In this document: positions 11,664 through 26,439 of the stretch, one piece after another | Numbering within the stretch: position 1 is the stretch's first letter | Layout: every line of letters begins with the position of its first letter | Virus record (IMG/VR): IMGVR_UViG_3300020205_001455 | Coordinates: 1-43,837 of that record | Source: a virus | Direction: 5' to 3' (one strand) | Length of the DNA: 43,837 nucleotides | Notes under the pieces: model-generated | Seen by the model: the letters and a program-made list of their open reading frames with translations, nothing else | What the model was told of the DNA's origin: nothing | Databases searched by the model: none | Position numbers and translations under genes: made by a program

Positions 11664-11675
11664 TCTCGTTTGAAA

Positions 11676-11750
11676 TGGGCGGGGCGGGAGTCGAACCCGC
11701 ATGAGCGCACTTATAAGGTGCGACCTTTTACCACTATCAGGCACCCGCCC
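11676..11750 (-). tRNA. tRNA-Ile (anticodon UAU)
   Basis: Acceptor GGGCGGG pairs with CCCGCCC; the T arm is GCGGG-TTCGACT-CCCGC. The anticodon stem CGCAC/GTGCG encloses CTTATAA, giving anticodon TAT, which reads the AUA codon. The 3' CCA is not encoded. The gene sits between gp41 and the late operon. Confidence 0.92.
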
Positions 11751-11757
11751 GTGAAAT

Positions 11758-13191
11758 TTATGACCAACCTTTTGTGTTGGGCTTGTCTCGCCCGTACCCA
11801 CCCGTGCGTCTGTGTGCGCCCCCGCCCCCGTGTGCGTGAGGGGTATCATCGTCATCTGTATCAACAGCCCCACCACCCTGAATCAACTGTTGTTGAGAAT
11901 CGTCCACATCAAATAACTTCATTTTGGCACGGTCTATGCCAATAACAAATTTACGATTTGCAACGATGTCATTGTATCGGTTCTTCAACTGCTTCACCAT
12001 TACTTGACCCAACTCATCCAATTGCTCGGTAGCAATTAAGGCAAACATGAAATCGGCAGTAGCGGGTAGACCAAACGACTCAGATGTGTCTGTGAGTTCA
12101 ACATCTGTATTACCAAAGCCCGAACGATTGGTCTGTGTGGCGGTGAAGATGGGAACACCAACCTCGACAGCCAAGCCACGAAGTTCCTCTGCAATCGCCT
12201 TGACATAGGTGTATGAATTGACATTTCCATTTGCCTTGAAGCGCGAAGATGCACAGATGTTCAAGTAGTCGATAAAGATGACATCAGGCTTGAAGTTCTT
12301 CTTCAGGCGCAATTCATCCAACAAATGACGGAAATGGTTTGAATTGGCAGATGCGGTGGGGTACTCCTTGATCAGGAGTTTCCCCGTGATACCCATGGTC
12401 ACCTTGGCAAGCCGCTTGGCATAGATCTCCATGGGCAACTTCTTGAGATCATCCAAGGTGATGTCCATGAGGTTCGCATCGATCCGCTCTGCGATTCGCT
12501 CCTCTGCCATCTCACAGGTGATGTACAGTACATTCTTACTCTGAGATAGGTAGTTCGCAGCATGGTGATACATGAACAGACTCTTGCCCACGCCCGTACC
12601 CGCGAGGATAACATTGAGAGTCTTGTCAGGCACACCACCGTTCGTGATCTTGTTGAAGTAGTCAAGATCGAATGGGGTCTTCTTCTCCACGCGATGGTAG
12701 AAGTCATATCGCTTCTCTGCATCTTCAATAAAATCGTGACCGATATGTTCATCGAATGAAACGCTAAGAGCCTGTGTGAGAATCTCTGGAATCGCGTTCT
12801 TGGAGCGACCCTTCGCTTTCTTTTCATCAAGCAGTTCGATGGATTCCATCAGCGCATTATATACAGCCTTATCCTTACAGAACTTTTCGGTCTGATCGAC
12901 AAGCCACTCCTCGTCAGGTTCTTCTACAGATTTCTCTAGGCATTCAACCAACTTAACACACTCGTCAAACTCACCTTGCGAGAGACCATCCTGCTGATTC
13001 AGAATAATGTTTAATGCTTCGCGTGTGGGTGCTGTGGCATACTTCTCGATGAATTCAGATACGCTGTTGAACAGTCGTTTTTCACAAGGATCGTGAAAGT
13101 ATTCTTGTCTGAGAAACGGCTGTACTCGCCGTGTAAAGTCGGGTCGGTGAAGAAGGCTGCGTAAGATGATAAGTTCGATTTTGTCTGTCAT
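11758..13191 (-). CDS. 41: Replicative DNA helicase, T4 gp41-like (DnaB family)
   Basis: The product of about 477 residues has an N-terminal DnaB-type helical domain and a RecA-type motor with Walker A GTGVGKS at about 198-204 and Walker B VIFIDYLN near residue 310. The ATQTNRSG segment near 355 matches motif H4 of the family. The C-terminus is a Gly/His/Asp-rich tail. It unwinds the lagging-strand template and partners gp61 primase. ATGs also exist at 13203 and 13200, but the TATAAT box of the promoter overlaps these, so the ATG at 13191 is the first that can be in the message. Confidence 0.94.
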   Translation of the reverse strand: MTDKIELIILRSLLHRPDFTRRVQPFLRQEYFHDPCEKRLFNSVSEFIEKYATAPTREALNIILNQQDGLSQGEFDECVKLVECLEKSVEEPDEEWLVDQTEKFCKDKAVYNALMESIELLDEKKAKGRSKNAIPEILTQALSVSFDEHIGHDFIEDAEKRYDFYHRVEKKTPFDLDYFNKITNGGVPDKTLNVILAGTGVGKSLFMYHHAANYLSQSKNVLYITCEMAEERIAERIDANLMDITLDDLKKLPMEIYAKRLAKVTMGITGKLLIKEYPTASANSNHFRHLLDELRLKKNFKPDVIFIDYLNICASSRFKANGNVNSYTYVKAIAEELRGLAVEVGVPIFTATQTNRSGFGNTDVELTDTSESFGLPATADFMFALIATEQLDELGQVMVKQLKNRYNDIVANRKFVIGIDRAKMKLFDVDDSQQQLIQGGGAVDTDDDDTPHAHGGGGAHRRTGGYGRDKPNTKGWS

Positions 13192-13201
13192 GGATTCCAT
13201 C

Positions 13202-13230
13202 ATTATACCACATTAACACACAAAAAGCAA
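13202..13230 (-). promoter_or_regulatory. Sigma70-type early promoter for gp41
   Basis: TTGCTT (13230-13225), a 17-base spacer and a consensus TATAAT (13207-13202) on the minus strand. The predicted mRNA start near 13195 is about 4 bases before the ATG at 13191, so the transcript would be almost leaderless. Confidence 0.72.
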
Positions 13231-13292: not shown

Positions 13293-14036
13293 TCATGTGT
13301 ACAGTCTGCGTCTCACATCTTCAATTGCATTTGGTGGTAGTTCACCGCAAGCAATAAGGCATGGATCGATTTTGTTCTGGTGGTTTGTGATGTCTTTCTT
13401 CGTGTATACACAAGTGCCATGTTTGTAGGTTAAGAAACTCAAGATGCTTTGGTCATGTCTGTGATCCCTGAATTCGGGGTAGTTAGGAAGACCTCGGCTG
13501 TTCGGAAGATCGGTGATAATCCTAGGATCACATGCGTACCGCAACCACTCCTCTACAAATGCTATTGCAAATGGAGTCTTCCTACAAACAAAACTACTTG
13601 CTATCCGCTGCGGCGAATTGCGAATCACATCGTTATCCATGCCCATCAGCACAAAAGCATCTCTCTTAGTATACATGCCATTCGTGAAGCACTCACCAAA
13701 AGTCATCACCCCTTTCTCTCCGATGGCATCTGCTTCTCCAAGAATCAAATCCCACGGGTTGGCACAAAAGTAGAATCCCGAATCTGTGTACATTAGCCAA
13801 TCTGTTTCACGCATCTCCTTGAGATATCGAAGAATCAGATATGGCTTCCAAATCCAGTATCCTGCTCCTCTTGGCTGAGGAAGGGTATAGGAGTTGTTAG
13901 AAATGAACTCTTGATCCAAGTCTTTTAATCCGTGTGAGATTGAAGTGTCGAACCCACCCCTGCTTAGAGCGGTTTCGCTGTTCAGTTTTTGAACCTCTAG
14001 GTATCTGACATGGGCGTAGTTAATATGAATCTTCAT
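13293..14036 (-). CDS. Glycosyltransferase-like protein, tandem copy 2
   Basis: The start at 14036 (MKIHINYAH) is set by AAGGA 8 bases upstream and by alignment to its paralogue at 14048-14749. The 247-residue product contains PRGAGYWIWKPYLIL (about residues 55-69) and DWLMYTDSG (about 78-86). A GAGYW-WKPY block followed by a DxD/DSG segment is typical of a GT-A-type family found in capsule and LPS clusters. The likely job is transfer of one sugar in the glycan built by this cassette. It closes the cassette, 89 bases before gp41. Acceptor and donor are unknown. Confidence 0.75.
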   Translation of the reverse strand: MKIHINYAHVRYLEVQKLNSETALSRGGFDTSISHGLKDLDQEFISNNSYTLPQPRGAGYWIWKPYLILRYLKEMRETDWLMYTDSGFYFCANPWDLILGEADAIGEKGVMTFGECFTNGMYTKRDAFVLMGMDNDVIRNSPQRIASSFVCRKTPFAIAFVEEWLRYACDPRIITDLPNSRGLPNYPEFRDHRHDQSILSFLTYKHGTCVYTKKDITNHQNKIDPCLIACGELPPNAIEDVRRRLYT

Positions 14037-14047
14037 GGTGTAATTCC

Positions 14048-14749
14048 TTATACAGGATTGCGAGTGTGATAAATGCAATGATCTGTTGGGTTGCTGTACT
14101 GTGTAATGTCAGACTTCTCCCACACATAGGTGCCGTGCTTGATTGTGAGAAGGCTCATGATGCTCTGATCGTGACGATGGTCTTTGAATGAGGGATAATT
14201 GGGAAGCCCCTGTGTGTTAGGCAAATCGCTGATAATCCTAGGATCCTGTGCGTACTTTAGCCACTCGTCCACAAAAGCAATCGAAAAGGGAGTCTTCTTA
14301 CAAACAAAAACGCTTGCCATTCTTTGTCCCGAATCCGTGTATTTTGGCTCATCCAATCCCATGAGTACAAACGCATCTCTTTTGCACAGTTCCTTGTTTA
14401 ATCCACAGCAATTGAAAGTCATAATACCCTTGTCACCAATCTCAGACTCAACAGAGGCAACCCAATCCCAAGGGTTTCTTACGAAGTACATCCCTGAATC
14501 TGTGTACATCAGCCAATCTTCACTACCCATCTTCTCCATTATCTTACGAATCAGGTATGGTTTCCACACCCAATATCCCGCCCCTCTCGCTTGAGAGAGC
14601 GTGTATCTGTTTCCATTGACAAACTCTTCGTCTAGGTCTTTGATGTCATATGGAATTGAGATGTCGAATCCATGTTCTAATGCAGAAGCACAGCATTTTT
14701 GCTGTGAGTTAAGGTACCTTCCATGTGCGTAGTTGATATGAATCTTCAT
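14048..14749 (-). CDS. Glycosyltransferase-like protein, tandem copy 1
   Basis: The 233-residue product is a close paralogue of the next gene. Both start MKIHINYAH-RYL and share RGAGYW-WKPYLI, DWLMYTDSG, KRDAFVLMG and LPN-GLPNYP-F-DHRHDQSI. The DSG/DxD-like acid pair and the WKPY block suggest a GT-A glycosyltransferase fold. The ATG overlaps the stop of the epimerase gene (ATGA). The pair most likely arose by tandem duplication and may transfer different sugars. Confidence 0.75.
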   Translation of the reverse strand: MKIHINYAHGRYLNSQQKCCASALEHGFDISIPYDIKDLDEEFVNGNRYTLSQARGAGYWVWKPYLIRKIMEKMGSEDWLMYTDSGMYFVRNPWDWVASVESEIGDKGIMTFNCCGLNKELCKRDAFVLMGLDEPKYTDSGQRMASVFVCKKTPFSIAFVDEWLKYAQDPRIISDLPNTQGLPNYPSFKDHRHDQSIMSLLTIKHGTYVWEKSDITQYSNPTDHCIYHTRNPV

Positions 14750-15528
14750 AGTGTAGTTTGACTTTTCAAAATTGAATCGTAAGTGTTTTTGAGACCCTGA
14801 TAAAAGCCGATTAACGGAACATCTAGTTTCAGTTCCTGTCCACAGTAGAACGAGATTCCACCTTCTTGAACATCGATTGGTACTTCATGGCTTCCCAATC
14901 GATTGATCTGTGCTGCAATGTCTGTCAGGGAGTGTTTTTCCCTGTATGAACAATTAACTTCCTTCGGTGGCTCTCTATCAACCAAGTACTTATGTACCAC
15001 AGAGACCAAGTCTTTCATATAGAAGAAGTCCATGATCTTATCTTTTTGGATCTTCATTGGTTCATGCCGAACACATCGATTGATGTTGGCTTTGATAAAT
15101 CGGGTAGGCAATTCATTCTCATCAAACACGCCAAAAATTCTGATGTTGTAACAGTTTGGTGTCTCTTTGATTGAGTTTGCAATCACCCTCTTGCTCAGAC
15201 CATATGGAGTCTCGGGTGCGAATGTCTCGGCACCCGAACCAAGTCCAATCAGGCGGGAGAAATGATCTTTACACGACAGTAGGTTATAGTGCATCAAAAG
15301 GTTTTGCTCAAGAACGGTTTCAGAATCCGACTTCAATCTGCTCCCACCCGCGATTGCTGTGTGGATAACAGCATCGAACTGTTTGCCATCAAACCATTCT
15401 CTCATAGCCTTTCCGTCCGTAAGGTCAAAATCAAGGCGAGTGATGGTGGTGATCTGATAGCGAGACTCTAAAGAGCGGTGTATGGATTTTCCAACATAGC
15501 CATTTCCACCTGTGATCAGAATCTTCAT
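14746..15528 (-). CDS. NAD-dependent epimerase/reductase (extended SDR)
   Basis: The 260-residue product begins MKILITGGNGYVGKS, the GxxGxxG Rossmann motif of extended short-chain dehydrogenases. The catalytic YGLSK (Y-x3-K) lies near residue 109. It is shorter than most sugar epimerases (about 310) and ends soon after the substrate domain. In this cassette it could reduce or epimerise the 4-keto sugar left by the dehydratase and the RfbH-like enzyme. It is translationally coupled to genes on both sides. Confidence 0.82.
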   Translation of the reverse strand: MKILITGGNGYVGKSIHRSLESRYQITTITRLDFDLTDGKAMREWFDGKQFDAVIHTAIAGGSRLKSDSETVLEQNLLMHYNLLSCKDHFSRLIGLGSGAETFAPETPYGLSKRVIANSIKETPNCYNIRIFGVFDENELPTRFIKANINRCVRHEPMKIQKDKIMDFFYMKDLVSVVHKYLVDREPPKEVNCSYREKHSLTDIAAQINRLGSHEVPIDVQEGGISFYCGQELKLDVPLIGFYQGLKNTYDSILKSQTTL

Positions 15529-15920
15529 GGGGTTGTACTCAAGAGTTTGCGAAGATGCAGCAATGATGTACCCATCTGATCTGCTGTGCCAAAAGACAAG
15601 GCAAGGTCATCGATGTAAATGTCCGCGATTATTTTTGGGCTGTATCCCGATAACTTTGCCCGTTCTTTCTCGGGCAAATTTTTGTTGACAGCGTCAAATG
15701 ATAGACCTCTTTGGCGACACCACTCAATCGCCTCCGTCAGAGACTTGTATTTCTCGTTGTCCCCTCTGTTAGTCCAAAGTACCAACTTATGTCCCTCTGA
15801 CTGTAGTTTCAAGAGCAGGGACAACAGTTCTTTGTGCTTTTCCTTCTGCTCCCCGATGTCGGGAAATCCATATTCACACAAGGTTCCATCAAAATCAACG
15901 GCGATTACTAGGCTCTTCAC
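15525..15920 (-). CDS. HAD-superfamily phosphatase
   Basis: The 131-residue product begins with a GTG codon (VKSLVIAVDFDGTLCE) that overlaps the preceding stop (GTGA). HAD motif I is DFDGT at residues 9-13, motif II is LWTNRG near 50 and motif III/IV ends in DIYIDD near 108-113. Such small cap-less HADs dephosphorylate sugar phosphates or related small molecules. Its position inside the sugar cassette suggests a sugar-phosphate or keto-acid sugar phosphate as substrate, by inference. Confidence 0.82.
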   Translation of the reverse strand: MKSLVIAVDFDGTLCEYGFPDIGEQKEKHKELLSLLLKLQSEGHKLVLWTNRGDNEKYKSLTEAIEWCRQRGLSFDAVNKNLPEKERAKLSGYSPKIIADIYIDDLALSFGTADQMGTSLLHLRKLLSTTP

Positions 15921-17083
15921 TTATCAACCTCCTGATTATTCACATCGACAAGACTCTTTGCCATCGCGTATGCGTGTTTGATGGCTGATTGATTCCGAAA
16001 GAAGTCATCATGCACGATGAATTCCTCCACAATATCTCGCGCATATGTTCCAATTGCAACACCATTGATCCGAACACCGACCATGTCAGCAAGTTGCTTG
16101 CTCAACGCATTCGTTCCACCCGACAGAACAATAGGAACAATACTTGGTTCCGAGACCTCTTTGTATATCTTTTTGGCAGCAATCATCTGCTTGCCGATGC
16201 GATCTTTTTCCCGCTTCTTGTTCAGTTTCATGTTGAACTTTTTGTTGATAACATCGGCACATGCAACAGCCTGTAGAGTAGTGTTGTAATCGTTCTCACC
16301 ACCACTCATGGGATAACCATCTGCTTGAATAAGCAGTCTGTCTCCCGCGACTTTGCGTGCCTCTTCGATTCTGTGTTCCAAACGAAGATTGCCCAAATTC
16401 AAACGATCTAGGCACATCGAATTGTAATTAGATGTGTTGATGTGATTGATCAGTTTCCATTCGTCCATGGTGATATCGTTTTCACCAACGGCAGCATGCA
16501 GTTCAAAGAGTTCGGCACCAGCCTTCATGCACCTTGGAAGAAGATCTAGAAGTTCTCTTGCGTTGTGACGATAAGAGATGACTTCCGCTTTTGGGCAAAT
16601 ATTGCTGCACTTTCCACAGCCGATACAAAGATCCTTGATAACGATTTCTTTTGACTGATCCTCATTCTCAAAACTGCCGCTCAACTCCTTGAATACATCT
16701 AGTCTGAGGATGAAATCCTTTGGTATGGCATCGGTTGGGCAAACAGGAATGCACAGGCTGCACCCGATGCATGTGGTTGGATCGATGTAGGATTTCCGAA
16801 CATGGTGGTCACCAGGCATTCCCACACTAACCATGATGTATGGTCGAACGCCAATTTGGATACCATTCTCGGATGCATATTCATAGGCAAGATCGATCCC
16901 ATCTACCGCACTAGCAACTACATCCACATTAGCAGACACATCAAGAATTTTTGCACCCGCTAGGGTATAGACGAATGCAAGTTTCTTGACTTGAACTTTG
17001 TCTTCGTTTCCCGCACCACAGATCATTTTAAAGCATTTCTGCTTCCGAATGATCGATTGAAGAATTTCAAAACGCTCGTTCAT
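15917..17083 (-). CDS. LdpA-like protein with two [4Fe-4S] clusters
   Basis: The 388-residue product has an N-terminal block, FKMICGAGNEDKVQVKKLAF, then VYTLAGAKILDVSANVDVV, that matches the start of cyanobacterial LdpA (light-dependent period) proteins as I recall them. Two ferredoxin-type sets follow: C105-x2-C108-x2-C111-x3-C115-P and C153-x2-C156-x2-C159-x3-C163-P. The C-terminal half resembles a TIM-barrel-like region (LIQADGYPMSGG; IVLSGGTNALS). LdpA senses redox state and affects the circadian clock in cyanobacteria. Here the operon position, between a TPP enzyme and a HAD phosphatase, points instead to electron transfer or catalysis in sugar synthesis. It is the most unusual member of the cassette. 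Confidence 0.72.
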   Translation of the reverse strand: MNERFEILQSIIRKQKCFKMICGAGNEDKVQVKKLAFVYTLAGAKILDVSANVDVVASAVDGIDLAYEYASENGIQIGVRPYIMVSVGMPGDHHVRKSYIDPTTCIGCSLCIPVCPTDAIPKDFILRLDVFKELSGSFENEDQSKEIVIKDLCIGCGKCSNICPKAEVISYRHNARELLDLLPRCMKAGAELFELHAAVGENDITMDEWKLINHINTSNYNSMCLDRLNLGNLRLEHRIEEARKVAGDRLLIQADGYPMSGGENDYNTTLQAVACADVINKKFNMKLNKKREKDRIGKQMIAAKKIYKEVSEPSIVPIVLSGGTNALSKQLADMVGVRINGVAIGTYARDIVEEFIVHDDFFRNQSAIKHAYAMAKSLVDVNNQEVDK

Positions 17084-17093
17084 TTGTTGTGCC

Positions 17094-18881
17094 TCATGGA
17101 ATAGAAACGATCATCTCGGACTTCAATTCTTCGTCAGACAGAAAGGGTGCCATGTCGTGTAGACCACCTTGAGTTCCGTTTGGCTTGAATGCCTGTGCGG
17201 GGAGAACATCAAGAGTATCCTGACTGATCAACTCAACAATCAGGGGCTTGTCTTGTCTTAGAATCCATGGCATTTTTTCGTCAAGTTGTTCGTTGTTTTC
17301 TACGCGGACATAGTCGATTTCAAATGCCGCCGCAATCTTTGCGATGTCCGCAAAATACACACCCGTGCTATTGCTGACACCGTGTAACCTTCCACCAAAA
17401 AACTTTGTCTGTGTTTGCTTGATGCTCATGTATCCATCGTTGTTAACGACGAGGATTTTCACAGGAATGTTGTTCTTCCTGATGACAGCCAACTCCTGCA
17501 TGTTCGTGTGAAAACTGCCTTCACCAATACAAGCAATAATGTTGTGGTTTGGGGATGCAAAGTGAATTCCAACTACGGCTGGAACTGCATATCCCATGTC
17601 GCCCTGTGCTGCCTGTACCATGTATTTCTGTCCCTGCTTCAACTTCAAGTTAGTTGAGCAAATATAACATGGCTGACCCGCGTCCGCAACAACAATGTCG
17701 CAGGATTTCATATTTTGATTGAGGCTTTCCACAATTTCGTACAGGTTCAACCCACGAACATCAGGTCTGTGAACTTCGGGAATGTAGATGGGCCATTTGT
17801 CTTTCCAGTAAGAACACTTCTTTGCCCACCACGACACATCCCAATTTTCAGATCTAGTCTCGTTCGCCGCGACAAAAAAATCAGCAACATTTCCATTGAT
17901 CGCAACATCAACATTGAATGTTTTCTTTCCAAGTTCACTCTTGTCAATGTCGATCATGATCTTTTTGCTATGTGGGCTAAAAGACTTTGCATCATATCCA
18001 ATGTGCGTGACATTCATCGAACTGCCCAAGATGATCAGGCAGTCTGAATTCTGAACTGCAAAGTTTGCACATCGATTTCCTTTGATTCCCATCATCCCGA
18101 TGTTTTGTGGGTGATCGTACTCAATCAAATCTCGGGTCAAGAAGTTGGTGACAAAGGGCACACCGTACAGGTCAACAAATTTTCTGAACTGATCTGTACT
18201 TTTGCTGTGTGCGATACCCGCGCCCGCGATGATTACAGGTCTGTTCGACTGAAATACAATCTCCTTCAGGGCGGTTTTGATCTGACTGATGGATGTGCTT
18301 GCTTCTTGTTCCTCTTCAGGAATGTACAGATCGTACTCGGTTGGCATGGGGGCAGTTTGAATATTCGATGGCACATCGATCCAAACAGGCCCTGCTCTTC
18401 CCGATGATGCAATGTAAATTGCCTTTTCCAGTTCATACGCAAGGCGACTCACATCTTCGATCAGTACAGCATACTTGGTCATGTTCTTGGCTGTATTGAC
18501 AATGTCATGTTCCTGTATCCCGTACTTGCGTAGATTGAGTCCGCGAGTCTTGTTGATGTATGACGCAATGTCGGTGAGTTTGGTGTTCCCGCTAAGGAAC
18601 AGAACAGGGACACTCTCCTGCCATGCATTCAGACAACTCGTTAGTGCGTTCGTCCCCCCACAGCCTGTCGTGACATTGACAACGGCAAGCCGTTTGTTTG
18701 TTCTTGCAGAACCTACCGCTGCGTGACCCGCACCTTGCTCATGGTGAAATGGGATGTACTGAATGTTTGGATTGCAGATAAACCCATCGTTGAGTCCACC
18801 ACAACCGCCGCCTACCATTCCGTAGACATGGGTAACACCTTCTCGCTCAAGTCGCTGTGTGATATAGTCACAAACTCTCAT
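17094..18881 (-). CDS. Thiamine-diphosphate-dependent enzyme, acetolactate-synthase-like
   Basis: The 595-residue product has the full three-domain layout of TPP enzymes. The catalytic Glu is E48 in FHHEQGAGHAA. The central domain has AGAGIAHS near 219-226. The TPP motif runs from GEGSF (453-457) to VVNND (478-482). Family members decarboxylate pyruvate-like 2-keto acids and add the fragment to an acceptor. In dideoxysugar pathways the YerE-type enzyme adds a two-carbon branch to a 3,6-dideoxy-4-ketosugar, and the RfbH-like gene nearby makes this attractive, but phylogeny was not tested. AGGAA precedes the ATG. Confidence 0.85.
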   Translation of the reverse strand: MRVCDYITQRLEREGVTHVYGMVGGGCGGLNDGFICNPNIQYIPFHHEQGAGHAAVGSARTNKRLAVVNVTTGCGGTNALTSCLNAWQESVPVLFLSGNTKLTDIASYINKTRGLNLRKYGIQEHDIVNTAKNMTKYAVLIEDVSRLAYELEKAIYIASSGRAGPVWIDVPSNIQTAPMPTEYDLYIPEEEQEASTSISQIKTALKEIVFQSNRPVIIAGAGIAHSKSTDQFRKFVDLYGVPFVTNFLTRDLIEYDHPQNIGMMGIKGNRCANFAVQNSDCLIILGSSMNVTHIGYDAKSFSPHSKKIMIDIDKSELGKKTFNVDVAINGNVADFFVAANETRSENWDVSWWAKKCSYWKDKWPIYIPEVHRPDVRGLNLYEIVESLNQNMKSCDIVVADAGQPCYICSTNLKLKQGQKYMVQAAQGDMGYAVPAVVGIHFASPNHNIIACIGEGSFHTNMQELAVIRKNNIPVKILVVNNDGYMSIKQTQTKFFGGRLHGVSNSTGVYFADIAKIAAAFEIDYVRVENNEQLDEKMPWILRQDKPLIVELISQDTLDVLPAQAFKPNGTQGGLHDMAPFLSDEELKSEMIVSIP

Positions 18882-18896
18882 TTGTTCCTGCCTTAG

Positions 18897-19637
18897 TTAG
18901 GTTCGACCGATGATAGCGGCTTTTCTCTTCTTGTCCGACATTACCGATGCTTCTGTACTCAAGAGTCGTCTTTCAAGGTTAGCCAATTCAAACTTAAGCG
19001 CGTGTTCAATCGTGCCTGTGTGAATGAACTTATCGACAGACATGACAACTTTTCTTGTTTCGACATAGTCAATCAGGTCGTATAGTTCCTCGTCTGAGAC
19101 CAAGGTTTCAACAGTTCCCCTACTGACATTGCCACCCATCGTGACCTTTAGTCCACGGGACTTGGCTTCGTGGGCCACTTTCTTTACCATGGAGATCGTC
19201 TTTTCAGATTCCACACTAGTGCCTCCATATGAGGCAGTCAGATCGTTTCTGCCAATGGTTACTTCGGTCAGGAGGTTTCCTGCTTTGATGATGCCAACAA
19301 CATTGTCAACCGCTGTAATCGTTTCGATTGTTACACCAATGTGTTCAAAATGATTCGGCGGAACCATGTTCATGAACTTTTGCATCGCAAATGGCGACTC
19401 TATCATCGGTACAACCACAGAAGTCACACCGATGTTTACGAGATATTGCAAGTTGGTCTTGGCTTCACTACCGCCAATCTTGATCAAGTAGTCAAGGTTG
19501 TTCTTTGCAGAGAGAATTGCTTCTCTTGCAACTTCAGTTTCTGTAAGACCCTCTGCCTCCATCTCTCCCTTGAGAGAGACAAAGCCAAACAGTTCCTTGC
19601 CTTCACGAAGAATCTTGTCGATGCTGCTTTCGCTCAT
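18897..19637 (-). CDS. HpcH/HpaI aldolase/citrate-lyase-like protein
   Basis: The start at 19637 (MSESSIDKIL) has AAGGA 8 bases upstream; ATGs at 19679, 19673 and 19655 are alternatives without one. The 246-residue product resembles the TIM-barrel HpcH/HpaI family: VVVPMIESPFA near 77-87 supplies the E of the metal site, and TIGRNDLTASYG near 127-138 supplies the conserved Asp. These enzymes cleave or form C-C bonds with pyruvate or an acyl donor. The partner TPP enzyme suggests a branched or keto-acid-derived sugar, by inference. Confidence 0.75.
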   Translation of the reverse strand: MSESSIDKILREGKELFGFVSLKGEMEAEGLTETEVAREAILSAKNNLDYLIKIGGSEAKTNLQYLVNIGVTSVVVPMIESPFAMQKFMNMVPPNHFEHIGVTIETITAVDNVVGIIKAGNLLTEVTIGRNDLTASYGGTSVESEKTISMVKKVAHEAKSRGLKVTMGGNVSRGTVETLVSDEELYDLIDYVETRKVVMSVDKFIHTGTIEHALKFELANLERRLLSTEASVMSDKKRKAAIIGRT

Positions 19638-19672
19638 TTCAAATATCCTTTTCATTTTAAATATTTCTTTCA

Positions 19673-20629
19673 TTACCAAACGAACTTGTTCTTATAGTGC
19701 TTAATGATTCCGCTTAGTTCTTGGTCAAATACAGCCCGAGGTGACCAACCCAATTTCCTGATCTTAGAATCATCAAGTGAGTACCGAAGATCCTGCCCAA
19801 CTCTAGAACAGGTCACATCTATGTAGTCGTTGATGTTGAAGTCTTTTGTCCCCAACAACTCGACAAGAATCTTTCTGACCGTCTCTAGATTGGTCTGTTC
19901 AAACCCACCCGAGATGTTGTATATCTCGTTCTTGATCCCACTCTCCACGACCTTGACAACACCCTCTGCCGTGTCCGCTGCATGAAGCCATGTACGCACA
20001 GGAGTGCCGTTGTTGTGAAGGGGAACCTTTCTGCCAAGGTGAAGATACTTGCATGTTTTGGGAATCAATTTCTCTACATATTGACCGATTCCATAGTTGT
20101 TCGTGGGGCGAACAATGATATAGGGGATGTTGTATGTCCTGCCCCATGCCACGATCAACATGTCAGCAGCAGCCTTGGTAGCAGAGTATGGATTCGAAGG
20201 CTTGAGAATGTCTCCCTCATGGTGGGCACCGTCAACGATGTCACCGTAGACTTCGTCTGTGCTGAAATGAAGAAGGATTGGAACCTTTCCACTTTCCTGC
20301 CTGTAGTTTCGCATCAGATTGAGAATGGTATGGACTCCATCGATATTAGACTTGACGAAATCGTCGCTGTTGACGATTGAGTTCCCAACATGGGTCTCGG
20401 CTGCGGTGTTGATAATGTAGTCGCAGTCATAGAGGAACTTCAAGTCATTGATGTCGCAATGGACAAACGAAAAGTTCTTATGCTTTTTGAATTCCTCAAG
20501 CAAATCCTCGTTTGCAGCATATGTGATCTTGTCAACGCCCTTGACATACCACCCCTTCTCTAAGCAGAGTCGGGTTACATATGAGCCAATGAAGCCCAAG
20601 CATCCTGTTATATAGACAATCTTGACCAT
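19673..20629 (-). CDS. NDP-glucose 4,6-dehydratase (RfbB-like)
   Basis: The 318-residue product is an extended SDR. The NAD site is TGCLGFIGS at residues 8-16, the catalytic triad set is STDEVYG (123-129) with Y148-SATK152. The STDE sequence separates 4,6-dehydratases from epimerases, since the acid pair performs the dehydration. It converts an NDP-hexose to the 4-keto-6-deoxy sugar, the usual substrate of the RfbH-like enzyme encoded next upstream. Sequence does not decide dTDP versus CDP sugar. GAGG precedes the ATG. No NDP-glucose synthase gene is in the window. Confidence 0.88.
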   Translation of the reverse strand: MVKIVYITGCLGFIGSYVTRLCLEKGWYVKGVDKITYAANEDLLEEFKKHKNFSFVHCDINDLKFLYDCDYIINTAAETHVGNSIVNSDDFVKSNIDGVHTILNLMRNYRQESGKVPILLHFSTDEVYGDIVDGAHHEGDILKPSNPYSATKAAADMLIVAWGRTYNIPYIIVRPTNNYGIGQYVEKLIPKTCKYLHLGRKVPLHNNGTPVRTWLHAADTAEGVVKVVESGIKNEIYNISGGFEQTNLETVRKILVELLGTKDFNINDYIDVTCSRVGQDLRYSLDDSKIRKLGWSPRAVFDQELSGIIKHYKNKFVW

Positions 20630-20642
20630 GGTTTCCTCTTTT

Positions 20643-21977
20643 TCAATCTACAACATCAAGACGAACACGCTTCTTGGTAAAGAAGTCATCGACTGTCTTC
20701 TCAATGTAGTCCATCTGCTCAGGGGTGATTACAGGGCTAGTGCCAAGGAAGAAGGTATCCGTAGTCACCTTCCTTGCATTGGGATAGTTCTTGATGACCT
20801 CCTGCTGATTCATCATACCCGCGTATGCGGGCTGTAGCATGATGTTTCCCGCAAAGTAAGGACGAGTCTGTATCTTGTTCTCCTCCAAGTAGTCTACGAT
20901 GTCCTTGCGCTTGAATGGACAACCGTCCTTGAGCGTGAGTGGGAAAGCAAACCACGCGGGATCAGAATACTCGGTTGCCCGTGGGATGATGAAATGCTCC
21001 TCATACTTGGAGAAGATATCACAGAGCCGCTTGTAGTTTCGTTTTCTCATATCGATGATTTGGGGCAGTCTCTTCAACTGAACTAGCCCCATCGCAGCCT
21101 GTTGATCTGTCGGCTTCAGATTGTAGCCGATCTCGTCGTACACATACTTATGGTCGAAGATCTCATCGGGTAGGGCAGGGAGCCAGTTTGAGAACCGCTT
21201 CTTGCACGAACCATTCTTCAGGAAGTTTGCCTTCTGTCCTACGCAATAACAGCCTCGTCCCCACTCGCGGAAACTGCGTGTCACGATCTCCTGTTCGTGA
21301 GTCTTACATGCAACAAAACCACCTTCGCCCATTGTGATGTGATGAGCAGGATAGAACGAGCAACTTGCAAACTCACCGAAAGATCCAAGCGGCTTACCCT
21401 TGTAGGTACTGCCCAATGCATCACAGCAGTCTTCAAGAAGGATGAGACTGTATCGATCAACAATCTCCATCAAGCGATCCATATTGGGCGGATTGCCTAG
21501 GACATGTGCAAAGGTAATGACCCTACATCCCTGCTTTGCCTTTTCCTCCACTTGATCAATGTTCAGGTTGAGAGTGTCTATATCAATGTCAACAAAGACA
21601 GGCTCAAACCCAACTTGGAAGATGGGATTAATAGTGGTAGGGAACCCTGCTATAGGAGTGATGACCTTGGTTCCCTTGGGGAGATTGTACAGTCTCTTCG
21701 ATGTCAGGGCTGACATCATGATTAGATTTGAACTGCTTCCGCTGTTAGTGAGGATTCCGTAATCCTTTCCCATCAACTTGGGAAACTGACCCTCAAAGCG
21801 AATTCCATTCTGACCCAACACTAACCAACCCTCAAGAAGAGTCTTGACAGATTCGGTGTACTCTTCTGTCCCGAAGAACGGGCCTGCATACTGCACCCAA
21901 TCTTTTCCCGCCTCCCATGTCTTCGAACTTTGCTTCGCTGCGATGAACTCTTGTACTGCCTTCAGAATGTCTTCCAT
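20643..21977 (-). CDS. rfbH: RfbH/DdhC-type iron-sulfur PLP 3-dehydrase (E1)
   Basis: The start at 21977 (MEDILKAVQEF) has AGAGGA upstream. The 444-residue product is an aspartate-aminotransferase-fold enzyme in which the PLP lysine is replaced by His (H212 in SFYPAHHITMGEGG), the hallmark of CDP-4-keto-6-deoxyglucose 3-dehydrase. The [2Fe-2S] ligands are present: C185-x57-C243-x-C245, then C258. The first spacing equals that of the Yersinia E1 enzyme; the last (x12 rather than x7) reflects a five-residue insertion before KKRF. E1 removes the C3 hydroxyl and needs electrons from an E3 reductase, which is not encoded here. Confidence 0.9.
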   Translation of the reverse strand: MEDILKAVQEFIAAKQSSKTWEAGKDWVQYAGPFFGTEEYTESVKTLLEGWLVLGQNGIRFEGQFPKLMGKDYGILTNSGSSSNLIMMSALTSKRLYNLPKGTKVITPIAGFPTTINPIFQVGFEPVFVDIDIDTLNLNIDQVEEKAKQGCRVITFAHVLGNPPNMDRLMEIVDRYSLILLEDCCDALGSTYKGKPLGSFGEFASCSFYPAHHITMGEGGFVACKTHEQEIVTRSFREWGRGCYCVGQKANFLKNGSCKKRFSNWLPALPDEIFDHKYVYDEIGYNLKPTDQQAAMGLVQLKRLPQIIDMRKRNYKRLCDIFSKYEEHFIIPRATEYSDPAWFAFPLTLKDGCPFKRKDIVDYLEENKIQTRPYFAGNIMLQPAYAGMMNQQEVIKNYPNARKVTTDTFFLGTSPVITPEQMDYIEKTVDDFFTKKRVRLDVVD

Positions 21978-21993
21978 GATTTCCTCTTGCCTA

Positions 21994-22827
21994 CTAGTGT
22001 ATCCCCATTCCCCAATCATTCAAGTTGGGAATGTTGTATTTTACAATACTTTCTTTGATGAACTGATACTTATAATTGTTCTCAATAGATTGAGTGCTAT
22101 AGATGTCGGGTCTCACCTTGAGTGGAAACGGGAATGGTTCTGCTTGCCAGTTGAAATTGCTGACTGATCGGTCATACTCGGTGCAGTCAATTATCTTTGC
22201 CTGAAACTTTGTGTGGTTAACATAATCAACAATCTTCCAATAGTACTGTTTAAGGGCAACAGCCTTCTTGTCTACCCATGCAATATGTGCAATGAAAAGA
22301 TTTGGCATGTTGACCCACAGTTGGTTGGCGGGTACAGGAAGATGCTCAGAGTGCATTTGCAAATGCCTGAATGTTGCCCTCTCCGAATAGGATCCAATCC
22401 TGTCCATCCAATTGATACGCCAAGCCCCATCAACCCTGACTTCAGATTGGTTCAGGTATTGAATCCACAGCGAATGAAAAAGGGTGTCTTTATGCGCGTC
22501 CATCAAGGCAGACAGTTGCTCCTTATTCATAGCACCATCAATATACTCGTCGGTGTCCAAACATACAATCTTACCCGAAAACTTCAGAGCCTCGTCATAA
22601 AGACGCTGACGATCATTTGATTCGATGTCAAGTTTGTCACTAGATCTGTCTGTTTCAAGGACAGATAAGATATTGTACTTTACCGCATTTTCTCTTAGAA
22701 ACTCAGAAGTTCCATCGGTAGCCCCATCGACCATAAAAACAAAGCCATCTGCATATTGCTGCCAAACAGGAAGCATTTCCTTGATTAGGAACAACTCGTC
22801 TCTTGTTTTGGTGATCTGTACAATCAT
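21994..22827 (-). CDS. Glycosyltransferase-2-like protein
   Basis: The 277-residue product begins MIVQITKTRDELFLIKEM, then FMVDGATDGTSEFL (about 31-44) and VCLDTDEYIDG (about 88-98). The D-G-x-x-D-G-T pattern and the DTDEY (DxD-type) motif fit a GT-A glycosyltransferase of the Glyco_tranf_2_4 class. The tail has a hydrophobic WVNMPNLFIAHIAWV segment. The ATG overlaps the stop of the methyltransferase gene. It probably adds one residue to the glycan. Confidence 0.78.
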   Translation of the reverse strand: MIVQITKTRDELFLIKEMLPVWQQYADGFVFMVDGATDGTSEFLRENAVKYNILSVLETDRSSDKLDIESNDRQRLYDEALKFSGKIVCLDTDEYIDGAMNKEQLSALMDAHKDTLFHSLWIQYLNQSEVRVDGAWRINWMDRIGSYSERATFRHLQMHSEHLPVPANQLWVNMPNLFIAHIAWVDKKAVALKQYYWKIVDYVNHTKFQAKIIDCTEYDRSVSNFNWQAEPFPFPLKVRPDIYSTQSIENNYKYQFIKESIVKYNIPNLNDWGMGIH

Positions 22828-23486
22828 TTTGGGGCACCAATCTTCTTCATGATGACAAATCCACTATAGAAGTGAACCCATTCGATCTCGCCTGTTTTTC
22901 CATCCATGTTGGAGATCACACGCTTGAAGAAAGAATCCATATCTTCACGCTTGTTATTGAAGTCAACGCCTTGGTTGAATTGCATTCCAGGCCATTGACC
23001 GCGAACGATGTGGTTCTTTAGATCCTCTCCATAGTAGGTGCATCCCGTGTCTTCGATGATGTAAAGACCGCCATGCTTTACATGAGAGAAGAGCAAGTCG
23101 AAGGACTTAAGGGTCAGTTCGTTGACATGGGAACCATCGTCTAGAACAACATCAAACTGCCCCCCTGCATCGTTGCAGACAGCCTGAGTGATTTGTGGAT
23201 CGCTCTGACTGCCAATGTAGATCTTGATACGATCAGATTGCGATGCCTTGCATCTTGGGTCGATGTCGATTCCATAGATTGTCGAATTTGGGAAGTACTC
23301 CCGCCACATTCTATGAGAACAGCCGTCCCGAACACCGATCTCAAGGATGTTCATAGGCAACTCCCTGATCCCGTTCAGATACCTGTGGTATATGTCTAAG
23401 TAAGACGAACCTGCAAATCCGTGGTTTGGGTCGTGCTTATCCGTCTGATGCTTTGCGCCGATTTCATGTAGTAATGTCTTGTTCAT
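22824..23486 (-). CDS. SAM-dependent O-methyltransferase (MycE/TylF-like class)
   Basis: The 220-residue product contains a class I methyltransferase site: NILEIGVRDGCSHRMW near residue 46 (motif I), IYGIDIDPRC near 70 and FDVVLDDGSH near 111-120. The N-terminal GAKHQTDK--NHGF-SYLD-YHRY block is shared with sugar O-methyltransferases such as mycinamicin MycE, from memory. The DDGSH acid pair would bind Mg. It likely methylates a hydroxyl of the deoxysugar or of the finished glycan. Confidence 0.82.
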   Translation of the reverse strand: MNKTLLHEIGAKHQTDKHDPNHGFAGSSYLDIYHRYLNGIRELPMNILEIGVRDGCSHRMWREYFPNSTIYGIDIDPRCKASQSDRIKIYIGSQSDPQITQAVCNDAGGQFDVVLDDGSHVNELTLKSFDLLFSHVKHGGLYIIEDTGCTYYGEDLKNHIVRGQWPGMQFNQGVDFNNKREDMDSFFKRVISNMDGKTGEIEWVHFYSGFVIMKKIGAPK

Positions 23487-24079
23487 CGTGTTACCTGTTG
23501 GTTGTGGGTTTCTTCAAAAGTCTTGCTGCACTTGTAGTTGTAGATCACTCCGTCAATCCATTCTTCCTTCTTGAGGAAATTGCGAATGCCCATACTGAAT
23601 GAGCGATCTTCGCCGCTATTCCATGGTGGGAAGCCAACCTGAACTGCAATTGATCTACGAACTGCGTTCAGGTGATTTGGTGGTCGATAGTATACCTTGC
23701 CCTCATGATCGTCGATCCATTGTGTGTACCGCAGAGAGTGGATGAATGGACGGCTGTAACCATCCGAGAAGACGATCTCGCCTGTCAGGGACGAGCAGTC
23801 GGGGTTCTTTGTCAGGGCATTCAGGACTTTTTCGATGTAATCAGGGCTGGCCATGTCATCATCATCTACAAAGGAAACATACTCGCCTGTCGATTGTGTG
23901 AGCAGCATGTTACGCTTCTGTCCGATGGTCATCTGCCTGTTGTCAGACAGCGACAGCACTTCTACATTGCGTTTACCGATCTGATTTGATAGTTCGGCTT
24001 TTAGTTGCTCAAGTTTGGGCTTCCGCTCATCTAGGGTCGGAATCAGGATGGAAAGTTTATGCATTGGTCGCCAAGACAT
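23483..24079 (-). CDS. Family 2 glycosyltransferase
   Basis: The 198-residue product reads MSWRPMHKLSILIPTLDERK, then QKRNMLLTQSTGEYVSFVDD and DDMASPDYI. The SILIPT start, the stretch before GEYVSFVDDDD (DxD) and the ED/GEDRSF acid near residue 160 are standard GT2 features. The ATG at 24079 is kept because AGGAG lies 6-7 bases upstream; a second ATG at 24064 lacks one. The gene overlaps the end of its upstream neighbour by 23 bases. Confidence 0.85.
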   Translation of the reverse strand: MSWRPMHKLSILIPTLDERKPKLEQLKAELSNQIGKRNVEVLSLSDNRQMTIGQKRNMLLTQSTGEYVSFVDDDDMASPDYIEKVLNALTKNPDCSSLTGEIVFSDGYSRPFIHSLRYTQWIDDHEGKVYYRPPNHLNAVRRSIAVQVGFPPWNSGEDRSFSMGIRNFLKKEEWIDGVIYNYKCSKTFEETHNQQVTR

Positions 24080-24785
24080 TCTTGATCTCCTCGGGCTTTA
24101 GGTCAAAGTTTCGTGAAAGACGCTCCTCAAAAAGCGGCTTGTCGTGTGCATACATTTCGGGAGACTCGTTCCGCGCATGGAGCGCATCAGGAGTCGTAGC
24201 CCCCACCCATTGATGCTGAATGATGACATGGTCAATGAATACAACTTTACCAAGCATCTTGGCTACCTCCGTGAACTCATTGTCGCAGAACACAGACTTA
24301 TAGCCAGGGTAGTAAAGGTATCCAAAGCGTTCGAAATACTTACGCCCCAAGATGGATAGGGTAATCAACTTGTCGCCTCCCGAGAAGCCATCGTTGAACC
24401 ACAACACACCATCCGTATCGGGGAAGTATGTTTTCATTGCCCGTGCAATCACATCGTCATAGCCACCCAACACAGGGATCATATCATCGGATGCAAGTAG
24501 AATGACATCGGGGTTTAAGCGACGAACTACATCCAAGTCAGCATTGATCGCTGAAATCTTGCCCGTTGAATTACCACAGACAATATGCAAGCGACCATCT
24601 AGTTGCGAGTTCAATCGATTGAACAGAGACCACATGTTCTCGTTGTTCATGGATGGATCGTCATGGTCGAATGATATCACGAAATGTACATCATGCATTC
24701 CCGATAGAAAATTGATGTACTTATCAAGTACACCCACAAACTTTTGTGGTCTACCTCTTGTGGGGAATTTAATCACCATTCTCAT
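24057..24785 (-). CDS. GT-A glycosyltransferase-like protein
   Basis: The 242-residue product begins MRMVIKFPTRGRPQKF, a variant of the GT2 opening, with VHFVISFDHDD near 34-44 and DVILLASDDMIP near 93-104 (DD as the DxD-type metal motif). The C-terminal half has FNDGFSGGD and DNEFTEVAKM. Proteins of this kind are frequent in phage and capsule clusters. AGGAG precedes the start. It is the first gene of the cassette in transcription order after the 178-residue gene. Confidence 0.75.
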   Translation of the reverse strand: MRMVIKFPTRGRPQKFVGVLDKYINFLSGMHDVHFVISFDHDDPSMNNENMWSLFNRLNSQLDGRLHIVCGNSTGKISAINADLDVVRRLNPDVILLASDDMIPVLGGYDDVIARAMKTYFPDTDGVLWFNDGFSGGDKLITLSILGRKYFERFGYLYYPGYKSVFCDNEFTEVAKMLGKVVFIDHVIIQHQWVGATTPDALHARNESPEMYAHDKPLFEERLSRNFDLKPEEIKNVLATNA

Positions 24786-25318
24786 TCTTCGGTCTCCTTA
24801 TTTGGATCGCCTTCATCGAGATCAACAAATTCAACAACTGCATTCCCCGAGTAGTCGGAGGCATATTGCTTGGCACGATTATACAGGGAAGTGTCTACTT
24901 CTTTAACATATCTCATGAAGTTAAGTGCAAAATTTTGAATTGCTTCGTCAACAAGTTGCTGCTCTTCCTCTGTCATATCGTCATCATCGCTGTCGATATT
25001 GGGATCCTCGTCTCCGTAGTCTCGTTCATCTGTCTGCTCTGACTTTGGAATATCGATTTGACACTCTTCGCCAAGTTCTTTCATCGAACACCGAAAGAGC
25101 ATGGCGGGAGTTCCATCGCCAACCCATGCACCAATAGAATTGTGTTCGATCCACTCGACTGCTTCGTCTTCCTGCATCCCATCTCTCTCCATAAGAATAT
25201 CCATGCAGCGACTATAGTCATAGATTGCAATAGGAATCGATTGACCACATCTACGGAGAATGCCGAGGAAAGCCTTTTCAAACCCATCAAAAAGCATTGT
25301 CTTATCTTCTTTGCTCAT
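24782..25318 (-). CDS. Conserved phage protein of unknown function, acidic
   Basis: The 178-residue product has a conserved N-terminal half, FDGFEKAFLGILRRCGQ, then AIYDYSRCMDILMERDGM and a WIEHNSIGAWVGDGTP block. From memory this domain is widespread in unrelated phages and has no assigned function. The C-terminal half is strongly acidic with a DSDDDD run. It lies directly after uvsX (one base gap), and its ATG has GAAGG upstream. The genes it travels with are replication genes, so a role in DNA metabolism is possible. Confidence 0.75.
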   Translation of the reverse strand: MSKEDKTMLFDGFEKAFLGILRRCGQSIPIAIYDYSRCMDILMERDGMQEDEAVEWIEHNSIGAWVGDGTPAMLFRCSMKELGEECQIDIPKSEQTDERDYGDEDPNIDSDDDDMTEEEQQLVDEAIQNFALNFMRYVKEVDTSLYNRAKQYASDYSGNAVVEFVDLDEGDPNKETEE

Positions 25319-25319
25319 G

Positions 25320-26375
25320 TTATACCTTCGCAGTTGGAGTTACTTCTGAAGCCTCTTCTTCAATATCGTTTCCATAACAGAATTCCTTCTTCACAGCCTC
25401 CTCAAGTTTTACCATAACATCAGCGGTAAAGAACTTTTCAGGGTTCTTGAGAATCTGATTCTCAAACACAGTCTTCCCACTTCCAACATCAATCTTTGTA
25501 CTGACCTTGGTAAAGATTCCGTGCTTGATGGCAATGTCAAGAAGTCCGTAATACTCATTCAATCCCGTGTCATAATTCAACTGTACATCCACGGTCTTAT
25601 CCTGCTTGGTTTTACGGCTCTTGTATGTCTTGCAATGAATGATACTTCCCACAACCTCATTGTCTACCTTATCCTTCTTCTTGCTCAGGTAGATGATTGT
25701 GGAAGCGGCATACTTCAAGCCACCACCACCACCCATTTCCTTTGTTGGGAAATATGAACCCACAACATCGTAAGTGTGGTTGGTCATTACGAGAGGAACA
25801 CATGCATGTCCCAACTTGATGGTGAGCACACGGAAGGTAGCCTTGACTGCCTGTGCCCGTGTCATGTCTCGCGTGTCTTTCCCTGCCGCCGTATCGGTCA
25901 TCTCTTTGGTTGTACTCAACATTCCCAATGAGTCCAATACAACAAGCATAGGAGGACGATCATCCTTATTGGTTTCGAGATACTTATCTACAGATGAGAT
26001 GCATTGTTGGCGAAACTCTTCTACTGTAGCAACGGGCAGTACTGCCACTCGCGTACCGTCTACGCCACGACTTTCAAGCAAATCACTCGTAACTGCTTGC
26101 TCTGAATCGAAATACAGCACCATTGCTTTAGGATTGCTTGCAAGAAACTCTCGCACAATATTCATTGCAAAGTATGTCTTGCCTGTGGCTTGTTCTCCCG
26201 CAAGTGCCACGATCTTGTTGTTTGGGATGCCACCATAAAGCGACCCACTCAACAGAGCATTGAATGCATATGCTCCCGTGGAGATATAAGACTCGGTGTC
26301 GCTCCCTTCAATTCCATCGGATGCGATGCCACCATAGATGTTACCAGACGCTTTAAGAATATCTTTCAGATTCAT
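25320..26375 (-). CDS. uvsX: Recombinase UvsX (RecA family)
   Basis: The 351-residue product is a RecA-type strand-exchange ATPase with Walker A GEQATGKT at 60-67 and Walker B PPMLVVLDSLGM near 145. TNHTYDVVGSYFPTKEMGGGGGLKY carries the DNA-binding loop 2 region with its Gly-rich end; only its start is quoted as motif (TNHTYDVVGSYFP). Length fits T4 UvsX (391) with shorter ends. It drives recombination-dependent replication and repair. It has its own sigma70-type promoter and a GAGG ribosome site. Confidence 0.94.
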   Translation of the reverse strand: MNLKDILKASGNIYGGIASDGIEGSDTESYISTGAYAFNALLSGSLYGGIPNNKIVALAGEQATGKTYFAMNIVREFLASNPKAMVLYFDSEQAVTSDLLESRGVDGTRVAVLPVATVEEFRQQCISSVDKYLETNKDDRPPMLVVLDSLGMLSTTKEMTDTAAGKDTRDMTRAQAVKATFRVLTIKLGHACVPLVMTNHTYDVVGSYFPTKEMGGGGGLKYAASTIIYLSKKKDKVDNEVVGSIIHCKTYKSRKTKQDKTVDVQLNYDTGLNEYYGLLDIAIKHGIFTKVSTKIDVGSGKTVFENQILKNPEKFFTADVMVKLEEAVKKEFCYGNDIEEEASEVTPTAKV

Positions 26376-26410
26376 TGTGTATACCTCACTTGGTTGGGTT
26401 GATTTGGCTT

Positions 26411-26439
26411 ATCTTACACTAATCCATCAGGCTTGTCAA
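26411..26439 (-). promoter_or_regulatory. Sigma70-type early promoter for uvsX
   Basis: TTGACA (26439-26434), a 17-base spacer and TAAGAT (26416-26411) on the minus strand. A leader of about 30 bases with a GAGG ribosome site leads to the ATG at 26375. The -10 and -35 boxes lie at the very end of the deacetylase gene. Confidence 0.8.

Follow-up and report, generated by a model that had tools for sequence, protein, structure and literature searches.

A phage sugar cassette between gp41 and uvsX with an exchangeable slot predicted to set a C4 branch on a 3,6-dideoxyhexose

Layout of the cassette

The 43,837-base virus record IMGVR_UViG_3300020205_001455, which was analysed at its full length and is called the window in the following, carries a set of sugar genes between a gp41-type helicase gene and a uvsX-type recombinase gene. 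According to the list of open reading frames (ORFs), 13 ORFs, here named c1 to c13, lie on the minus strand at 13293-24785, and neighbouring ORFs overlap by up to 31 bases or are separated by up to 15. The tightly coupled 13-gene sugar cassette described in an earlier note on this DNA is therefore real, with all 13 ORFs on one strand and nearly contiguous. That note had counted 13 genes between gp41 and uvsX, which is correct for the cassette but not for the whole interval of about 12 kb, where a small additional ORF brings the total to 14. Family matches also support the placement between helicase and recombinase and a nucleotide-sugar route in which a 4-keto-6-deoxyhexose would become a 3,6-dideoxy sugar, with transferases to follow. 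The features are:

11758-13203, minus strand: gp41-type helicase (Pfam DnaB_C, 3.8e-18), right-hand boundary of the cassette
13293-14078, minus strand: c1, paralogue of c2, GT-A-like through its homology to c2 (similarity in alignment A3)
14048-14749, minus strand: c2, predicted GT-A glycosyltransferase (structure model)
14746-15528, minus strand: c3, short-chain dehydrogenase/reductase (SDR), reductase or epimerase (Pfam Epimerase, 1.7e-21)
15525-15920, minus strand: c4, HAD phosphatase (NCBIfam BT0820-type HAD, 2e-26, under its cut-off)
15917-17083, minus strand: c5, LdpA-like, TIM barrel with an inserted 2x[4Fe-4S] ferredoxin domain (Fer4, LdpA_C)
17094-18881, minus strand: c6, YerE-like thiamine diphosphate (ThDP) carboligase (three Pfam TPP domains)
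18897-19679, minus strand: c7, aldolase-like, HpcH/HpaI superfamily (Pfam HpcH_HpaI, 35.2 bits, cut-off 25)
19673-20629, minus strand: c8, RmlB-like nucleoside diphosphate (NDP)-glucose 4,6-dehydratase (TIGR01181, 294.2 bits)
20643-22019, minus strand: c9, RfbH/E1 3-dehydrase of the pyridoxamine phosphate and [2Fe-2S] type (NF011936, 478.3 bits, cut-off 423)
21994-22827, minus strand: c10, probable GT-A glycosyltransferase (PF13704, sub-threshold)
22824-23486, minus strand: c11, S-adenosylmethionine methyltransferase (PF13578 just under cut-off; phrog_21658 methyltransferase, 1.1e-28)
23483-24079, minus strand: c12, GT2 glycosyltransferase (PF00535, 2.9e-10; phrog_14775)
24057-24785, minus strand: c13, glycosyltransferase-like (phrog_14945, a phage glycosyltransferase PHROG, 2.9e-16)
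24782-25318, minus strand: small ORF with no assigned function, between cassette and uvsX (phrog_13182, 4.6e-25)
25320-26375, minus strand: uvsX-type recombinase (Pfam RecA, 2.7e-13), left-hand boundary of the cassette

Core sugar enzymes

The identities of the core genes are shown by their sequences. In the case of c8, the NCBIfam model TIGR01181 reached 294 bits, compared to 72 for the cytidine diphosphate (CDP)-glucose dehydratase, which suggests deoxythymidine diphosphate (dTDP) as the sugar nucleotide. In the case of c9, the score exceeds the RfbH equivalog cut-off of NCBIfam NF011936, and the protein aligns over its full length with a solved E1 structure (PDB 3bcx, 3.6e-114). One His and four Cys residues of c9 are conserved throughout the 81 phage RfbH sequences; we take the His, which replaces the Lys of aminotransferases, to be catalytic, and the Cys residues are presumably the cluster ligands. 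Finally, the YxxxK motif of c3 is kept in all 54 slot loci that have c3.

An exchangeable slot between c8 and c3

A viral scan with c9 was carried out, of which the best 80 of 163 relatives were analysed; single loci are referred to by L numbers. The segment from c8 to c3, called the slot, could be delimited in the window and in 56 of the 80 RfbH loci (n=57), the other 24 having no slot by the rule used. A YerE-like enzyme occupies 30 of the 57 slots, a split transketolase 12, a split ketoacid-dehydrogenase E1 another 12 and other contents 3, the families having been confirmed on representatives by Pfam and NCBIfam. L147 and L148 hold an HpcH-like gene only, and L188 a single E1 subunit. Just three ThDP superfamilies are known to use ketone acceptors (PMC12247030), the same three as in the phage slots.

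Slot content was also associated with the presence of putative donor genes. As keto-acid-forming families we counted HpcH/HpaI, KPHMT (ketopantoate hydroxymethyltransferase), NeuB and HMGL/DmpG (hydroxyoxovalerate aldolase). Such genes were found in 26 of 30 YerE-like slots and in 0 of 24 split slots (Fisher 1.5e-11), and in 22 of 26 against 0 of 17 after near-copy loci were merged (Fisher 1.4e-8); the rows are related and not independent, so that these p values overstate the evidence, which counts against our reading together with the points gathered further below. For instance, L127 and L091 share one contig, as do L189 and L084, and several other loci are near copies. L110 was scored as having no donor gene, the ORF caller having missed it, though tblastn shows an HpcH-like match, and in L130 the reading frames for the ThDP enzyme and the aldolase are fragmented. 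In the case of L165, the slot combines a ThDP enzyme with an acetaldehyde dehydrogenase and a 4-hydroxy-2-oxovalerate aldolase, and L173 has the same two partner gene types. The L165 pair would make one of the donors preferred by ErwE, an enzyme that favours 4-hydroxy-2-oxo acids (PMC12247030).

Slot contents have been exchanged among these loci. The distribution of slot types over the RfbH tree is close to random: over 47 rows at least 14 changes are needed, the minimum possible being 2 and the mean for shuffled labels 15.7. Nearly identical RfbH proteins can go with different slots, as in L112 and L113, where RfbH is 99.8% identical at the protein level and the flanks are 86% (3.1 kb) and 90% (3.4 kb) identical at the DNA level, and the slots are different. 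Likewise, the close relatives L110 to L113 have cassette edges and core in common with the window and a different slot.

Reverse viral scans were carried out with the split subunits from RfbH loci as queries, giving 80 split-transketolase and 80 split-E1 loci. The partner subunit was present in 80/80 and 79/80 of these, respectively, a c3-like SDR in 79/80 and 71/80, and RfbH in 40/80 and 51/80. An RmlB-like dehydratase was found in 71/80 and 74/80, compared to 0/80 uvsX loci (the best 80 of 180 relatives from a viral scan with uvsX). Donor genes were present in 2/80 split-transketolase loci and in 6/80 split-E1 loci, all six of which also have a YerE-like gene. Because the queries came from RfbH loci, the reverse scans apply to the queried subfamilies and do not extend to viral transketolase or dehydrogenase genes in general.

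Altogether, these data bear on the idea that the cassette serves merely as filler DNA, with no function beyond headful packaging, a suggestion published for the lipopolysaccharide (LPS) clusters of cyanophages (PMC3037559). The cassette ORFs of the window are all open and tightly packed, catalytic residues are kept across the 81 phage RfbH sequences, and the contents of the slots are chemically coherent. We therefore regard mere filler as highly improbable.

As a separate observation, 3-dehydroquinate-synthase-like and short SDR genes stand beside the YerE-like gene in the slots of L110, L111, L134, L143 and L152 (confirmed by Pfam on L111).

The carboligase c6 and its putative donor module

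The protein c6 matches the N, M and C ThDP domains of Pfam and thus has the three-domain ThDP decarboxylase fold; the catalytic Glu is present in 27 of 27 full-length YerE-like slot proteins. Another explanation would be that c6 is an ordinary acetolactate synthase of amino-acid metabolism and that the cassette yields only a plain 3,6-dideoxyhexose, and acetolactate synthases are indeed the top NCBIfam matches of c6. However, those shown for c6 are all below cut-off, and the best PDB match is 8rph with 280 bits, acetolactate synthase following with 208 bits. Moreover, in many loci c6-type genes are found between the dehydratase and reductase genes, and elsewhere two other carboligase superfamilies take their place. 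On score order and gene context this explanation was rejected, and we consider it very unlikely. The assignment of c6 as a YerE-like carboligase is consistent with its position beside the genes of a 3-deoxygenation pathway to a 4-keto sugar (c8, c9). At the ThDP motif 8rph reads CDG; the same letters are reported for JanthE, a YerE-like enzyme (PMC12247030), and 8rph is presumably JanthE itself.

The remaining slot genes of the window, c7, c5 and c4, encode an HpcH-like protein, an LdpA-like Fe-S barrel and a HAD protein that probably make the keto-acid donor. The profile of c7 matches HpcH aldolases in the PDB, and its candidate residues Glu119 and Asp146 are invariant in alignment A2, position 67 being Lys. 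We take the catalytic set of HpcH/HpaI enzymes to consist of a metal-binding Glu and Asp and of an Arg, which would be expected at Lys67. The role proposed for c7 is synthesis of the keto-acid donor. In the case of c5, the structure model shows an aldolase-type TIM barrel (best Z 17.7, root-mean-square deviation (rmsd) 2.8, 209 residues aligned) with a poorly predicted ferredoxin insert; many TIM barrels tie in this fold search and therefore no reaction can be read from the model.

A search among annotated phages and plasmids gave no match to the LdpA-like protein, and a scan of genome contigs with alignment A1, limited to two patterns, gave three loci. The LdpA-like set itself consists of 20 loci on 19 contigs (L091 and L127 being on one) and includes near copies (L098 with L105, L176 with L177). 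A YerE-like enzyme is encoded on nine of the contigs and a NeuA/KdsB-type cytidylyltransferase on nine others, and none has both; L104 ends too soon to be scored. This pattern fits an LdpA-like module making a keto acid that is used either by the ThDP enzyme or for activation with cytidine monophosphate (CMP). The ThDP motif of c6, GEG, was also tried as a mark of slots with an LdpA-like gene; it held in 5 of 5 within the slot set and failed on wider loci.

Proposed pathway

From these genes we infer the following order of reactions. First, c8 would form the 4-keto-6-deoxyhexose, from which c9, as E1, would remove O-3. Meanwhile, c7, c5 and c4 may supply a keto acid through a condensation of the aldol or enolpyruvate type on the TIM-barrel proteins, followed by dephosphorylation. 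The carboligase c6 would then decarboxylate this alpha-keto acid and attach the remaining acyl unit at the C4 ketone, and c3 would reduce the new branch ketone. Methylation of the sugar by c11 is possible, and c10, c12, c13, c1 and c2 would transfer the finished sugar. In other phages, a split transketolase in the slot would lead to a hydroxyacetyl branch and a split ketoacid-dehydrogenase E1 to an acetyl branch, and still others would combine a YerE-like enzyme with another source of the keto acid.

Thus, the cassette probably makes an NDP-linked C4-branched 3,6-dideoxyhexose and passes it to its own soluble glycosyltransferases, the segment between c8 and c3 setting the branch. The earlier note had proposed a route to a methylated deoxysugar. 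Its deoxysugar route stands, but the product has to be revised: a C4-branched sugar is expected, and the ThDP, aldolase-like, LdpA-like and HAD genes would form a variable branching slot.

Several points weigh against this pathway. The c8 score lies under the RmlB equivalog cut-off (294.2 vs 365.1 bits), though matches at the family level are strong, and c5 is far below the LdpA equivalog cut-off (130.2 vs 450 bits), so that only a related architecture is indicated. The reaction assigned to c7 is itself putative. The GEG motif of c6 departs from the usual GDG; among the 9 contigs that combine an LdpA-like gene with a YerE-like enzyme, 3 show GDG, and GEG is present in L082 and L083, two loci that lack an LdpA-like gene. 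A search of 10 phage records, possibly fragments, found an NAD-binding reductase of the E3 type (PF00175) in none of them, and 6 of 10 records lack a sugar nucleotidyltransferase; the host would therefore have to supply both. Lastly, 14 of 81 RfbH loci have no complete ThDP enzyme, most of them being short or cut near the cassette, and in L175, where RfbH is present and there is room for a ThDP enzyme, none was found.

Insertion site and edge exchange

The gap between uvsX and gp41 is below 0.8 kb in 76 of the 80 uvsX loci, with a median of 47 bases. Comparison of this interval across relatives therefore gives no universally conserved core, the cassette being absent in these 76. At the thresholds used, the RfbH, RmlB-like dehydratase, SDR, LdpA-like, YerE-like and split ThDP types were found in 0/80 uvsX loci. 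Of the four exceptions, L026 and L044 have a partial gp41 at their ends, and in L002 and L003 the uvsX-gp41 site is occupied by a sugar cassette of another kind. In the L002 record, gp41 follows 12.2 kb past uvsX, and homologues of c13 and c12 (82% and 77%) are succeeded by other sugar genes. This alternative cassette encodes an RfbH-like protein at 14914-16128 of L002 (198 bits, below cut-off) with His at the aminotransferase Lys position.

L002 is also informative on the edge of the cassette. The uvsX protein is identical between the window and L002, and the small ORF at 24782-25318 has an L002 counterpart that is 89% identical. In a MAFFT alignment, the minus-strand tract 24701-26500 of the window is mostly 92-99% identical to L002 at the DNA level, with one 150-column window at 77%, and the stretches flanking it are mostly 65-80% identical. 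L110 is nearer to the window overall (polymerase 90%, RfbH 95% identical), yet its uvsX is only 61% identical. Because of this discrepancy and the 92-99% tract, we read 24701-26500 from the alignments as a recent homologous exchange at the cassette edge. In this exchange uvsX could serve as a homologous anchor. A second tract of 2 kb, 40654-42627 in the tRNA and transfer-messenger RNA (tmRNA) region, is 95.6% identical to L002 with neighbours at 67-78%, and is likewise read from the alignment as a recent exchange.

Origin of phage RfbH

RfbH-like matches were found in 14 of 274 genomes of one bacterial class, that of a Thioglobus genome, and are 32-46% identical. In the RfbH tree, 54 phage rows group together against 13 bacterial rows with support 99/97; the tree has long branches, its bacteria come from a single class, and its phage members were chosen for their resemblance to the window. 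On these data, a bacterial O-antigen cluster is not supported as a recent source, the best bacterial RfbH being at most 46% identical and phage RfbH forming a group of its own relative to the one class sampled. In the bacterial fragment L197, RfbH adjoins split transketolase genes.

Target of the sugar

Three targets were considered. A virion protein is our best guess and ranked first, though still a tentative one.

Phage DNA was ranked second and is doubtful. The sugar would here act as a restriction shield, i.e. as an elaborated form of T4 glucosylation, and slot swaps would allow escape from enzymes that recognise modified DNA. The cassette is located among replication genes, and a Mom-like protein adjoins an N4/N6 DNA methyltransferase at 30021-31825 of the window. 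In addition, the uvsX-polymerase region, which in T4 reaches the beta-glucosyltransferase gene, is variable in the T4-like phage LC53 too (PMC10132071), and phage glycosyltransferases modifying DNA are noted in PMC12619734. On the other hand, only 1 of 11 records has a gene of the thymidylate-synthase/hydroxymethylase superfamily (PF00303); the window and a 147.6-kb relative are among the 10 that lack one, although all may be fragments. The single match, in record G281, is full-length and may be an ordinary thymidylate synthase. Some RfbH cassettes also stand in loci that have neither uvsX nor gp41. No cassette protein matched a DNA alpha- or beta-glucosyltransferase family in the general family searches, no direct search having been made.

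Host surface glycan was ranked third and appears unlikely. The sugar would be placed on a host surface polysaccharide during infection, e.g. to block superinfection, by a captured cluster of the O-antigen type. Yersiniose and erwiniose occur in the surface polysaccharides of bacteria, and T4-like cyanophages have LPS gene clusters (PMC3037559). However, the cassette proteins show no membrane spans (no 19-residue window above 1.44, Kyte-Doolittle), and therefore the cassette itself provides neither a flippase nor a polymerase or lipid-carrier transferase. The separate grouping of phage RfbH from the 13 bacterial sequences also speaks against recent capture from the class sampled. Any other target is more improbable still.

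Transfer genes and methyltransferase

Five glycosyltransferase-like proteins had been predicted. This stands for c12 by Pfam and for c13 by PHROG; c10 has a sub-threshold Pfam match only, and c1 and c2 gave no family match in profile searches. In the case of c2, the structure model (mean predicted local distance difference test score 68.8) has PBCV-1 capsid glycosyltransferase entries as top structural matches (Z 12.5, rmsd 3.3-3.4, 177 residues aligned; Foldseek, VIA), tied with other GT-A enzymes; a common fold shows no function. The reported start of c1 is TTG, which creates the 31-base overlap with c2; translation may instead begin at an internal ATG. Homologues of c10 with at least 35% identity occur in 51 of 82 loci searched, and adjoin RfbH in many phage loci.

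Relation to known systems

The closest known systems are yersiniose A with YerE in Yersinia pseudotuberculosis and erwiniose with ErwE in Pectobacterium, in which a 3,6-dideoxy-4-keto sugar is likewise formed and then branched at C4 by a YerE-like enzyme; YerE adds a pyruvate-derived unit to CDP-3,6-dideoxy-4-keto-glucose (PMC12247030). The set of enzyme types predicted for c8, c9, c6 and c3, namely dehydratase, 3-dehydrase, carboligase and reductase, is that of this established route. Unlike these, the present system is phage-borne, has an RmlB-like instead of a CDP-type dehydratase and keeps keto-acid genes in its slot, and the window cassette has no nucleotidyltransferase or E3 reductase of its own. 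Split transketolases (miharamycin, amipurimycin) and alpha-KADH2 enzymes belong to the same two superfamilies and have been proposed to branch keto sugars (PMC12247030); those systems are bacterial, whereas the phage versions occupy the same slot as the YerE type.

Among phages, the LPS clusters of the T4-like cyanophages P-SSM2, S-SSM7 and S-SM2 are also large sugar cassettes, but lie near hli03/phoH and tRNAs (PMC3037559), whereas the window cassette lies at uvsX-gp41 and differs in its C4-branching content and exchangeable slot. The cultured Synechococcus phage S-H68 has an RfbH, annotated as CDP-4-dehydro-6-deoxy-D-glucose 3-dehydratase, among sugar genes; it is only 43% identical to that of the window, and no ThDP enzyme is named among the 24 features shown. 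Judged by titles and abstract openings, no description of phage branched sugars or of a phage YerE was found in the open-licence literature. Sugar clusters as such are already known in T4-like phages.

On balance, we lean towards a wider proposal, taken as a whole: uncultured phages may run a combinatorial branched-sugar system with a conserved 3,6-dideoxy-4-ketohexose core and one slot for three ThDP superfamilies, the YerE type being paired with a fitting source of keto acid. On this view, many of the viral 'auxiliary metabolic genes' for transketolase, pyruvate dehydrogenase E1, acetolactate synthase, ketopantoate hydroxymethyltransferase and hydroxyoxovalerate aldolase would be sugar-branching genes, and the LdpA-like Fe-S barrel would take part in a new keto-acid synthesis shared with CMP-activated sugar acids. 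In PMC3877843, viral pyruvate dehydrogenase E1 is assigned to the tricarboxylic acid cycle and viral transketolase to the pentose phosphate pathway. For such virome surveys an alternative reading is offered, should the genes counted there be the same as the phage split E1 and split transketolase genes, which were found here mainly in sugar cassettes. The vague description of a sugar cassette is replaced by a specific candidate pathway, in which the branch enzyme is swapped and the rest kept, akin to serotype switching. Furthermore, the phage slots offer many natural carboligase variants with candidate donors attached, and the LdpA-like module is a lead to an undescribed keto-acid route.

Other features of the window

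A promoter scan of the window showed no excess (21 vs 25.3 in shuffled sequence) and a terminator scan a slight one (15 vs 11.9); neither result was used. A polysaccharide deacetylase-like gene (PF01522) lies at 26414-27187 between uvsX and the DNA polymerase, and is also present in L002 and L110. A tmRNA gene at 41130-41482, with the tag AKFNKKQSRRLALAA, stands amid tRNA genes (ARAGORN, Rfam). ARAGORN additionally reports a tRNA-Ile(tat) at 11676-11750, inside the ORF 10437-11876, which is unlisted by Rfam at gathering score. Finally, 6841-10440 encodes a protein of 1199 residues whose N-terminus resembles cytidyltransferases and which matches a ribosomal-protein-S6 glutaminyl transferase family.

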